Shown piece after piece: positions 47,169 to 52,222 of a DNA stretch of 64,000 nucleotides. The notes beneath the pieces were generated by a model. That model made no database searches and had not been told where the DNA came from. It saw only the letters and a program-made list of their open reading frames with translations. The stretch covers positions 1,809,001-1,873,000 of the forward strand of contig NZ_CP089985.1 in assembly GCF_021390155.1 (NCBI RefSeq). The letters are read 5' to 3'. Both the position numbers and the translations under genes were made by a program. Source of the stretch: Pseudomonas sp. HN11. Its GTDB lineage: Bacteria > Pseudomonadota > Gammaproteobacteria > Pseudomonadales > Pseudomonadaceae. The first letter of the stretch is position 1, and every line of letters begins with the position of its first letter.

Positions 47169-48689
47169 ATGAATAATCATAAGCTGCTGGGTAGAAGTCC
47201 TCTGAATAATTTGCCGGTATCGGACCCCGGTCCGTTTGGTGTGGGGGCTGGTAATAAGCCGTCTTACACAACGGAACAGGCCGCTAGACAACTCACGCGG
47301 GAAAATCTGCGTTTTCATGACCGTAATGGTGATTCGAAAGTCGATGTGAATTACACGGTGGATAGCAGCTTCACCCACCAGCAGAAGCGGCGTGTTCGCC
47401 AGGCCGTGCAGTCCTGGCAGGATGTGGTCAATGTCAACTTTCGCGAGCAGACGGGCAGGGCGGACGGCACGCTCAACATTCGCAACAACCCAAATGGTGA
47501 TCGTGGGGTTGCCACCTTTCCTGGCCGGTTCACTACCCAGACTTCGGCCACGATTGGCACGCGGGGAGAAAGTGGGTCGCCGGCATTGGGCAGTCACTTT
47601 TCGTTGACGGCCATCCATGAGGTCGGCCACGCCATTGGCCTGCATCATCCGGGGAACTACAACGGGGGCGGTTTCAATTACCAGAACGGCGCGATCTACG
47701 CGGAGGATACCAAGGCGCGTACGGTGATGAGTTATTGGTCGGAGAAAAACCAGAAGGGGCACGACTTCAAGGGGCAGAATCCGTCTGCGCCGATGATGGA
47801 TGATATCGCTGCGGCGCAACGCCTGTACGGGGCCAATCACCAAACCCGTAGCACCGACACCATCTATGGCTTCAACTCCAACACCGAGCGGGAGGCGATG
47901 AGCCTAAAAAGCGCTGCGGACAAACCAGTCTTCTGTGTCTGGGACGGTGGTGGCGTCGACACCATGGATTTCTCCGGGTTTTCCCAGGACCAGAACATCA
48001 ACCTGAACGCCGAATCGTTTTCTGATGTGGGCGGGATGAAGGGCAATGTGTCCATCGCCAAGGGCTGCACGATTGAAAACGCGATTGGCGGCTCTGGGCG
48101 AGACAACATATCGGGGAATGAGGCGGCAAACCGGATCAAGGGCGGTACACGGGGCGATACCCTGAGAGGCGGTGGCGGCACGGATACCTTTGTCTACGAC
48201 AAGGCCAGCGATTCCACCCCGTCCGATCCCGACCTGATTGAGGATTTCACCAGCGGTACCGATAAGATAGATGTGACGGGTGCCTTGAAGGGCGCTGGTG
48301 TGCGCACCCTGGTATTTACTGATCGGTTTACCGGGCGAGCCGGAGAAGCAGTGCTCAAGCATGATGCCAACACGGGCCGTTCAAGCCTGGCCATCGACCT
48401 CAAGGGAACAGGCAGCGTGGATCTGCTGGTCAAGAGCAAAGGAGAGATCAAGCCTGCCGACGTGCAGTGGGGTGGCCAGGCGCAGAAGGTCCAGCCCGCG
48501 CCTGTTCCCGTCCCAACCCCTGCGCCCGCCCCGTCGCCGGATAACACACAGGAACATACCGCCGGCTTGATCCAACGAATGGTCACCATCCTGTTGGGGT
48601 TTTTCTCACAGTTGCTGAACCTGCTGACAGCGTCGTCCAACCAGATATCCGCGGAAAAAACCGGCCTTAAGCCTAATGCCCTTAACTGA
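47169..48689 (+). CDS. Serralysin-type (M10) metalloprotease with atypical C-terminal extension
   Basis: The 506-residue predicted secreted zinc protease has: pro-region; zinc site HEVGHAIGLHH (H150, E151, H154, H160); Met-turn TVMSYW (M187); and RTX calcium repeats (about 306-340, GGSGRDNISGN, IKGGTRGDTLRGGGGTDTF). The beta-roll/C-terminal region ends at about 434 in KPADVQW, which aligns with the ADIVV end of AprA. Beyond it are 72 extra residues: a Pro/Ala/Val linker, then an amphipathic hydrophobic segment (LIQRMVTILLGFFSQLLNLL, 467-486). No type I secretion genes or inhibitor gene are adjacent. Confidence 0.88.
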   Translation: MNNHKLLGRSPLNNLPVSDPGPFGVGAGNKPSYTTEQAARQLTRENLRFHDRNGDSKVDVNYTVDSSFTHQQKRRVRQAVQSWQDVVNVNFREQTGRADGTLNIRNNPNGDRGVATFPGRFTTQTSATIGTRGESGSPALGSHFSLTAIHEVGHAIGLHHPGNYNGGGFNYQNGAIYAEDTKARTVMSYWSEKNQKGHDFKGQNPSAPMMDDIAAAQRLYGANHQTRSTDTIYGFNSNTEREAMSLKSAADKPVFCVWDGGGVDTMDFSGFSQDQNINLNAESFSDVGGMKGNVSIAKGCTIENAIGGSGRDNISGNEAANRIKGGTRGDTLRGGGGTDTFVYDKASDSTPSDPDLIEDFTSGTDKIDVTGALKGAGVRTLVFTDRFTGRAGEAVLKHDANTGRSSLAIDLKGTGSVDLLVKSKGEIKPADVQWGGQAQKVQPAPVPVPTPAPAPSPDNTQEHTAGLIQRMVTILLGFFSQLLNLLTASSNQISAEKTGLKPNALN

Positions 48690-50697: not shown

Positions 50698-50854
50698 GCC
50701 GATTGTCCGCATGAGCAAGTTCCTACGTGTTTTTCGGAATCGCCCGGCAATATCGCTCACGCCCCTCTGTTTTAGATTTTACGCCTGTATCAGCCCGTGA
50801 GCGCCGCCTCGTGGGTTGATTCCTTCCGGCTTGAATCAAGACAGGAACTCCGGC

Positions 50855-52222
50855 ATGAGGATGATTTGCATGTGGGTCCTGGTACTGATGGTCTCCGCGC
50901 TTTCGGACGCCGTCGTCGCCAGCATGAAGACCATCAGCAACAGCGATTATGTCGCCAGGATGGCTGCCGCCACCGCCACTGCCTGGCCCCTGTTGGCAGC
51001 CACCGCGCGCCTGAAGAACGAAACCCGGTTCTATGCCGATGCGCAAATTCTTGTCTACGACGGGGTCAATGCCTGGCTGATCGATGCACAGGGTTCTCGG
51101 GCGATAGACCCACAGCCGGTGCGGGCCTTGGGCCTGCCGTCGAGCTATAGCCAATTCGACAAGTTGTCGTGGGAGGGGCGTCCCACCGTCTACATAGGGT
51201 TGGGCTCGGAACTGCCCGAAGAGGAAGCCATACGGATGGTCGCGAACCCCGGGGCGGTCCCGCAAATGTTTTTGTTGGCCACCCATGAGGCCTTTCATTT
51301 TTATGGGCAGGTAGGATGGTCATTGGGGGTGGGGTCCCGCGCTGAGCATTACCCCTCGCGCATTGCACCCAGGCAGTATCGACAGCATTTGATCCGTTCT
51401 TTGCATGCGGCCATCCAGGGTGAGCCCCAGGCTTTGGGGAAGGCACGGTACTGGTATGACCGATGGAACGCTGTGTTTCCCGATGAGGTTCGCAACATTG
51501 AGCCTTTCGACATCATGGAAGGCACGGCCGATTATATTGAGGTACTGGCCGAGAGACTCGCTGTCGGGGACCCCGCCGAGCCTCGTGCATGGTCGGCTGC
51601 CGTAACGTCACGCTTCCCGTGCGCCTCAACGTTGTCGATTGATAGCGAAAGCTACGCCCTGGGTGCCTTGGCGATTTATTTGCTCTACCGGCAAACGGAT
51701 GATGAGTGGAAAAACATCGTCCGCGGGGCGACGCCGGTAAGTCGGCTGTTGGCGTCGGTAGCGGCGGTTGTCGATGAGCCGGACACGGCGATGAACGATC
51801 GGATCGCTCAACAAATCAACGAGAAAAACCTGGCGCTGGAAACCACAGTGGGCAAGGTGATCAGCCAGTTAAAGCATCCGGACACGGTTCGTTTGCTCGT
51901 GCCGATGGCGTTTGTCAGGGGGGCGATTGGGGTGGAGGGGCATTATCAATCGCAAGGTCTGGCTGAAGAAGTGTATTACCGGTTTTCGGCGCGATTTTCG
52001 CCTACGGTCGGCCGGATTGCTTTTGACTCCGCTACGGTAGGAGTCTTGATCAGCAAAGCGTGCGGTGAGGAGGACGCCTTTGTGGTGGTGCCTCTGCCTG
52101 TCGAGGTATTCCAAGGGGCCGCGCCCGCGCGCTTGCAGATAAATACCGAGGGCAAAACGCTTGATGTGCCTTTTCCCGTGAAGGGCGCGGGCGGTGAGAA
52201 TGTGTGGTGTGTTCGCTCATGA
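50855..52222 (+). CDS. Predicted secreted zinc metallopeptidase (HExxH), unknown family
   Basis: The 455-residue protein has a hydrophobic signal segment (residues 1-22). The central zinc motif is HEAFH (144-148), and an EGTADYIE segment with E222 sits about 75 residues later, as in gluzincins (HExxH plus downstream Glu). I do not recognise the family. Two more regions, about 230-330 and 330-455, may be accessory domains. It is followed by an intrinsic terminator. Function unknown; the metalloprotease assignment rests on the motif alone. Confidence 0.75.
   Translation: MRMICMWVLVLMVSALSDAVVASMKTISNSDYVARMAAATATAWPLLAATARLKNETRFYADAQILVYDGVNAWLIDAQGSRAIDPQPVRALGLPSSYSQFDKLSWEGRPTVYIGLGSELPEEEAIRMVANPGAVPQMFLLATHEAFHFYGQVGWSLGVGSRAEHYPSRIAPRQYRQHLIRSLHAAIQGEPQALGKARYWYDRWNAVFPDEVRNIEPFDIMEGTADYIEVLAERLAVGDPAEPRAWSAAVTSRFPCASTLSIDSESYALGALAIYLLYRQTDDEWKNIVRGATPVSRLLASVAAVVDEPDTAMNDRIAQQINEKNLALETTVGKVISQLKHPDTVRLLVPMAFVRGAIGVEGHYQSQGLAEEVYYRFSARFSPTVGRIAFDSATVGVLISKACGEEDAFVVVPLPVEVFQGAAPARLQINTEGKTLDVPFPVKGAGGENVWCVRS

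Follow-up and report, generated by a model that had tools for sequence, protein, structure and literature searches.

Introduction

Serralysins (MEROPS M10B; Pseudomonas AprA/AprX, Dickeya PrtA/B/C/G and Serratia serralysin) share the zinc-binding motif HExxHxxGxxHP, a Met-turn, an M10_C beta-roll with its C-cap and the lack of a hydrophobic N-terminal segment. Their proteolysis depends on zinc and calcium, and many or all members have the exporter and inhibitor genes at their own locus. The portion of PMC6891781 drawn on here gives the Met-turn consensus as S-[T/V/L/I]-MSYW and places the export signal within the last ~20 residues, and reviews, as excerpted, describe beta-roll proteins as type I substrates. 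There is continuing dispute over cargo recognition by PrtD-type exporters, and the sections of PMC2642768 cited here set both views side by side. The Pseudomonas lipase TliA (export domain LARD), an RTX protein that belongs to this exporter class and has an acidic-hydrophobic C-terminus, was not exported with an 11-residue peptide behind it, and by those experiments its C-terminus must be free; earlier work cited there found that one added C-terminal residue impairs export, and in another case cited there the terminal motif was dispensable. HlyA-type RTX toxins have an amphipathic helix near the C-terminus, which is proposed in the cited part of PMC8870123 to be essential for HlyA export, and they are read by an HlyB-type exporter. 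HlyB has a CLD domain, which the solved PrtD does not have as far as the cited part of PMC8277102 goes, and the PrtD channel is described there as very narrow.

Other proteases combine a related core with additional parts. Mep72 of P. aeruginosa is also a metzincin with extra C-terminal domains; according to the cited part of PMC4334185 these are carbohydrate-binding domains, and the protein has an N-terminal signal and uses type II secretion, unlike the protein described below. Caulobacter Sap, an RTX protease joined to an S-layer-like part, is apparently type I-secreted and has no clearly identifiable type I signal in the account given in the cited part of PMC3034196. In P. syringae, serralysin-like proteases are co-regulated with type VI secretion system (T6SS) proteins and listed among candidate effectors (PMC10294431, part cited).

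Here we describe a serralysin-like metalloprotease encoded in a 64,000-nucleotide stretch of the Pseudomonas sp. HN11 chromosome (hereafter the window). It differs from M10B serralysins in a 72-residue Pro-rich/helical extension, in being encoded away from aprDEF, and in two cysteines, C256 and C300. Its tail is a short linker plus a helix, as against the S-layer-like part of Sap, and may be likened, by its place near the C-terminus, to the helix of HlyA-type toxins. In a search limited to open-licence papers we recognised no prior description of tailed or modular Pseudomonas serralysins. The tailed protease is a true variant within an established family and does not amount to a new type of system.

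A second serralysin-type protease

The open reading frame (47169..48689, forward strand, as for all features of the protein below) encodes 506 amino acids plus a stop, with an ATG start and AAAGG upstream. The metzincin catalytic domain (residues 30-223; 47256..47837) could be aligned to solved serralysins and was modelled by AlphaFold2 with pLDDT mostly >90. Within it the zinc-binding motif HEVGHAIGLHH (residues 150-160; 47616..47648), read directly from the sequence, extends to a complete HExxHxxGxxHP at residues 150-161, with H150, E151, H154, H160 and P161 invariant in an alignment of 51 rows. The Met-turn VMSYW, likewise read directly (residues 186-190; 47724..47738), has S188 and Y189 invariant and V186 and M187 at ≥90% in the same alignment; residues 185-190 (TVMSYW) keep the MSYW of the consensus and replace its leading S by T. 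The preliminary description of this DNA, which took both the active site and the Met-turn to be intact, was thus correct on this point.

The catalytic domain is followed by the M10_C region, comprising the RTX beta-roll and C-cap (residues 224-434; 47838..48470). The Pfam M10_C model (PF08548) matched residues 222-427 with 229.7 bits, in keeping with beta-roll membership. PF00353, the model of the RTX repeat, gave no match at E 0.001 in the window protein, unlike in the AprA of the same genome, and the NCBIfam serralysin model scored 416.5 bits against a cut-off of 500, so that the subfamily threshold was missed. Amongst 25 matches in the PDB 20 were serralysins, starting at residues 24-66 and all stopping at 429-432, and relative to 1g9k there was a 9-residue gap in the beta-roll together with gaps of 6 and 9 near residue 63. 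Foldseek searches with the model ranked alkaline proteases of the Pseudomonas, Serratia and Erwinia type first, the best matches having a modest whole-chain TM of about 0.55-0.59 and an rmsd of about 11-12. Identity to the genome's own AprA was 52% across residues 27-432. Judged by hydrophobicity alone there is no signal peptide, the maximum 19-residue Kyte-Doolittle mean (KD19) in residues 1-440 being 0.76 and lying within the active-site helix. We read the window protein as another zinc protease of the serralysin type beside AprA, with all structural parts in place and with activity expected from its intact motifs.

In order to define orthologues, 398 Pseudomonas genomes were searched, at least 335 of which had any match; a score of ≥740 bits was taken to mark an orthologue, which gave 15 genomes, including HN11 itself, among the matches listed. 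The M10_C cysteines C256 and C300 occur in 15/15 and 14/15 of these orthologues respectively.

The extension begins at the usual end of the family

The equivalent of the canonical Asp-hydrophobic C-terminal end is D431-V-Q-W434 (48459..48470) in the 51-row alignment, in which D431 is invariant (51/51). Following this Asp there are 3-5 residues in 10 rows, 8-12 in four and 56-87 in 34, the window protein included, and 29-30 in three alphaproteobacterial rows in which the alignment is doubtful at this point. The ten shortest ends read DIVA, DVLVN, DILVN (twice), DILVK, DVIL, DVVF, DFILHQ, DFLII and DFDL. Since untailed rows end 3-5 residues past D431, the extension begins at the usual stop of the family, and the same boundary emerged from the comparison with AprA-type proteins, given where the solved serralysins stop. 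The window protein continues for 75 residues beyond D431 and 72 beyond W434, terminating in KPNALN, and so does not have the free Asp-hydrophobic end of a serralysin; the preliminary description, according to which a 72-residue extension covers the usual export end, is borne out by the alignment. None of the 34 tailed rows has an Asp plus hydrophobic C-terminus, and a canonical end at the very tip of the tail was rejected for these rows. It had also been envisaged that orthologues might share the tail and keep an ordinary secretion end inside it: the tail is shared, and the internal D431 point reads DVxW in most tailed rows, with three rows (L068, L072 and L073) having DIVT, close to an ordinary end. 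In two other proteins (L054, and L042 4916-6487) G replaces W at this point.

The tail comprises a Pro-rich linker (residues 435-463; 48471..48557), which varies in length among orthologues and is predicted to be mostly disordered, a hydrophobic helix (residues 464-488; 48558..48632), delineated by AlphaFold2, Kyte-Doolittle hydropathy and dN/dS, and a polar end (residues 489-506; 48633..48686) that is predicted to be disordered and is weakly constrained. A linker and hydrophobic C-terminal segment are present in all 15 aligned orthologues of group 1, the window one included. Pooled dN/dS values over eight close sequences, which are estimates without a significance test, were 0.16 for the catalytic domain, 0.14 for M10_C, 0.27 for the linker, 0.32 for the helix (464-487) and 0.68 for the last 19 residues (488-506). 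The lower value of the helix relative to the extreme end suits a binding helix better than a signal read from the end. A frameshift or assembly artefact, of which the frameshift had been named as an outcome that would overturn the extension, was rejected on the presence of the tail in 15/15 orthologues together with the dN/dS values.

The AlphaFold2 model from 51 sequences had a mean pLDDT of 87, with 380/506 residues at ≥90, and was used instead of one built from 15 rows (pLDDT 48). Values of <50 were confined to residues 1-26, 439-443, 451-463 and 491-506, and the extension itself was modelled as a disordered linker and a single helix at 464-488 (pLDDT by 10-residue block 57, 83 and 71). The tail had no Pfam match at E up to 1. 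The best of eight matches of the tail in the PDB, a reaction-centre chain aligned to tail residues 6-51 with an E of 0.017, was taken as a match of composition.

Chemistry of the helix

The best KD19 of the window tail is 1.60, as against 0.76 for residues 1-440. The seven rows nearest the window range from 1.56 to 2.29, and the remaining 11 of group 1 from 0.86 to 1.67. Of the two further clades, one of three rows has values of 1.09-1.74 and one of eleven rows has values of 0.34-0.94. In the eleven-row clade the best 18-mer carries a net charge of +1 to +5, the helical moment is significant in 11/11 (p 0.001-0.017) and most tails terminate in motifs such as SIFR or WFR. Across 33 tails, a set that left out the window row, the helical moment exceeded that of same-residue shuffles at p<0.05 in 20 and did not in 13, the rows being related and hence not independent. 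Twelve of the 13 non-significant tails are in the window's group and include its seven nearest relatives (p 0.11-0.78). The segment had been called hydrophobic and amphipathic; the hydrophobicity stands, whilst amphipathicity is not significant in the seven nearest relatives, and as a property common to all tails it is only partly right. The chemistry of the helix thus differs by clade, from transmembrane-like to cationic amphipathic, with the layout constant, and the term 'membrane-seeking helix' would probably suit all three helix clades, with 'amphipathic' suiting part of them only.

A subfamily with exchangeable C-terminal modules

In Pseudomonas there is a subfamily of serralysin paralogues, located for the most part at a single chromosomal site, and the window gene is one of its members. 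This subfamily, and the presence of AprDEF elsewhere in the genome, had been overlooked in the preliminary description. We read 39 stretches that contain genes of the subfamily, chosen from the best matches and from named genomes, as well as the surroundings of the HN11 aprA. The named genomes included, among the matches listed, P. simiae, P. cedrina, P. marginalis, P. veronii, P. cyclaminis, P. rhodesiae, P. lactis, P. paracarnis and P. haemolytica, most of which we take to belong to the P. fluorescens group; basal members were also found in records that carry the names P. syringae and P. viridiflava.

In a tree of 78 cores, Pro-rich plus helix tails fell in three clades of 19 (including the window), 11 and three, making 33 rows after one relabelling. 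The other cores carried M10_C repeats (22), Pro/Cys tails (seven), trypsin-like tails (four), no tail (nine) or a broken or other end (three). The tree requires 11 changes of tail type for the six labels as given, a count to which a mislabelled row adds one, compared with a shuffled mean of 38.4, and eight without the broken/other label. With so few changes, tail type is inherited within clades and has been switched several times. The slot after the first beta-roll is occupied, according to clade, by Pro-rich linker and helix, further beta-rolls, Pro/Cys repeats or a trypsin-like domain, and since sister clades put other modules in the same slot the core alone is common to all. Dozens of homologues have between 53 and 544 residues after the canonical end point.

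Three proteins of 945-983 residues, in open frames, combine one catalytic domain with three M10_C domains separated by Pro-rich linkers (L059 7311-10205, L056 11078-13912 and L065 11448-14396); they lie near the tailed gene, and the L056 case was confirmed with Pfam. Many M10_C-repeat proteins finish again near a D-V-x-G-L type end. In four others a trypsin-like domain is joined to the serralysin core via a Pro-rich linker (L049 5754-7973, L051 6245-8737, L052 5528-7744 and L098 5821-8094), and in L049 and L051, the two searched against Pfam, PF13365 scored 46.4 and 45.2 bits; to judge from their domain content, such proteins are two proteases in one chain.

Several further arrangements were noted in the same stretches. 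Pro/Cys-rich tandem tails, with repeats such as DPKPEPCP, are found on serralysin cores in L038 (4977-7343), L035 (10457-12178) and L092 (8343-10604), and the last segment of several of them has an A-R-A/S-W look in common. The same arrays also contain M10_C proteins that lack the catalytic domain (L038 2805-4607, L042 3152-4729 and 7242-8366, L059 10340-11218), some of them preceded by long Pro/Lys/Asp repeats. Subfamily genes split into two frames occur at L071 7766-9298, L041 6317-8436 and L043 5851-7855, where sequencing error and real decay are both possible.

Candidate exporters

M10_C was matched three times in the single 6.27 Mb contig of the HN11 genome, namely in the window protein, a 477-residue AprA (M10_C part C1:3321649-3322302) and a 36-bit fragment with an internal stop. 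The preliminary description had found no aprDEF or inhibitor gene adjacent to the protease. This holds for the window, where none was found beside it among the open reading frames read, so that protease and exporter do not share a locus; it does not hold genome-wide, since an aprA-inh-aprDEF locus (L053) lies about 1.46 Mb from the tailed gene. That locus contains AprD, the inhibitor (PF02974), an HlyD-type adaptor, an outer-membrane factor and a subtilase autotransporter.

Two ABC exporters of this genome exceeded the PrtD cut-off, AprD and a Has-type exporter whose gene, by our reading, adjoins those for HasA and its receptor. No exporter of the LssB or HlyB type scored over its cut-off in the HN11 genome, and export by that route was rejected on this basis. 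AprD at ≥90% identity was found in 40/40 subfamily genomes (in 39 by reading the locus or the window, and in G349 by score only) and in 0/40 controls, in which the best match was 61%, a contrast that is biased because the controls were picked for lacking a good serralysin match and a co-occurrence that is confounded by relatedness. A second exporter match of 52-61% was present in 21/40 subfamily genomes and absent at E≤1e-120 in 19/40, which makes the Has-type exporter unlikely as a general route; G305, one of these 19, has two AprD matches. Should export in this subfamily depend on an exporter of the PrtD type, AprDEF would be the only one found common to all these genomes. The T6SS component ClpV exceeded its cut-off in 39/40 subfamily genomes, a figure without a control set and therefore uninformative. 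In G285, a draft genome with a tailed serralysin, AprD lies in two overlapping frames (C192:14861-16632), which, if real, would be a natural exporter-deficient case.

What the tail may do

Our preferred reading, which we hold tentatively, is that the tailed protease is exported by AprDEF in trans and that the helix docks the enzyme at a membrane or lipid surface. AprDEF, encoded elsewhere in the chromosome, would export the protein and the beta-roll would fold with calcium once outside the cell; the Pro-rich arm would then hold the C-terminal helix away from the enzyme, and the helix, by inserting into a membrane or another lipid surface or by lying along it, would keep the protease at its substrate. 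Activity, export, the choice of exporter, membrane binding and the target are all things that we infer. A docking tail is favoured because the core is shared, the tails interchange, the helix is more constrained than the end and the arm is long and flexible. Against it, the free-C-terminus rule, as far as the cited part of PMC2642768 extends, implies that AprDEF should be blocked by a 72-residue tail, unless it is the helix that is read; amphipathicity is not significant in the seven nearest relatives, and membrane binding is itself a prediction. Against AprDEF as the sole route stand ClpV in 39/40 genomes and the biased and confounded AprD contrast. The helix might instead be a relocated type I signal, read by AprDEF or the Has-type exporter, with the Pro-rich arm keeping it accessible, and we think this rather unlikely, keeping it close behind docking because of the free-end rule of this exporter class (PMC2642768, part cited) and the precedent of HlyA. 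Such a relocation agrees with the absence of an Asp-hydrophobic C-terminus from all 34 tailed rows and with the D-V-x-G-L type end that M10_C-repeat proteins often regain, as if supplied anew. A separate signal would, however, be required for every tail class (helix, Pro/Cys, trypsin-like and M10_C repeat), constraint on the last 19 residues is weak (dN/dS 0.68), the tail ends differ by clade (KPNALN, GKKQP, LAKPS, SIFR, WFR), and the solved PrtD, as presented in the cited part of PMC8277102, is missing the CLD domain of HlyB.

Retention of the protein in the producer's envelope by its hydrophobic tail, either tail-anchored or stuck in the exporter, which would give a cell-bound protease, is improbable. 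Hydrophobicity in the window's clade is near or in the transmembrane range, and the tail would enter first into an exporter whose channel is very narrow (PMC8277102, part cited); the cationic amphipathic helices of the eleven-row sister clade (KD19 0.34-0.94), however, are not transmembrane-like, and residues 1-440 contain no further strongly hydrophobic segment (maximum 0.76). We give still less credence to a different export route, type VI secretion for example, in which M10_C would act like a carrier domain and for which the co-regulation of P. syringae proteases with the T6SS (PMC10294431, part cited) and the ClpV matches in 39 of the 40 genomes could be adduced, the latter saying little without a control. 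No T6SS gene was recognised on reading the neighbouring open reading frames of the window, and the reviews, as excerpted, place beta-roll proteins with the type I substrates. That the gene was once shorter and that its tail is C-terminal read-through, neutral or in decay, is scarcely credible: the linker and extreme end do vary in length and sequence, with a dN/dS of 0.68 in the last 19 residues, but the helix is found in 15/15 aligned orthologues with a dN/dS of 0.32 and the same layout recurs across three clades.

The preliminary description had offered a surface anchor, a part of a pore or adhesin, or a new secretion signal as roles for the extension, and this is, with partial support, still the right list of options. 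More broadly, though speculatively, the Pseudomonas serralysin core may be a platform for exchangeable C-terminal modules (a helix on its arm, one or two additional beta-rolls, Pro/Cys arms or a second protease domain) that AprDEF handles by means of an internal or a relocated signal, breaking the rule of a free Asp-hydrophobic C-terminus. The tailed serralysins are natural test cases for the dispute over cargo recognition, being homologues of classic cargo with a buried end in genomes that bear AprD: they either tolerate an internal signal, have moved the signal into the helix or leave by another way, and comparison of tailed and tail-less forms could tell an end-read from an internal signal. 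Membrane binding by the helix, if it occurs, would illustrate a way of keeping a soluble exoprotease at a lipid surface.

Chromosomal surroundings

Comparison of 40 loci (the window and 39 stretches) identified a relative of the window's MFS gene (PF07690) in 35 and of its solute-binding gene (PF13531) in 31, and on the opposite flank, in many loci, we identified by reading genes for cytochrome c maturation and genes of phosphonate type. L049, L051 and L052 have their trypsin-tailed genes in different surroundings. Upstream of the protease, the window encodes a HicB-like antitoxin (PF15919; 46459-46863) whose cluster is present in 22/40 loci. A 468-residue protein (50816-52222), which matched neither Pfam nor NCBIfam models at E 0.001, has a hydrophobic N-terminal part and an HExxH-like stretch (HEAFH), and its cluster occurs in 3/40 loci including the window.
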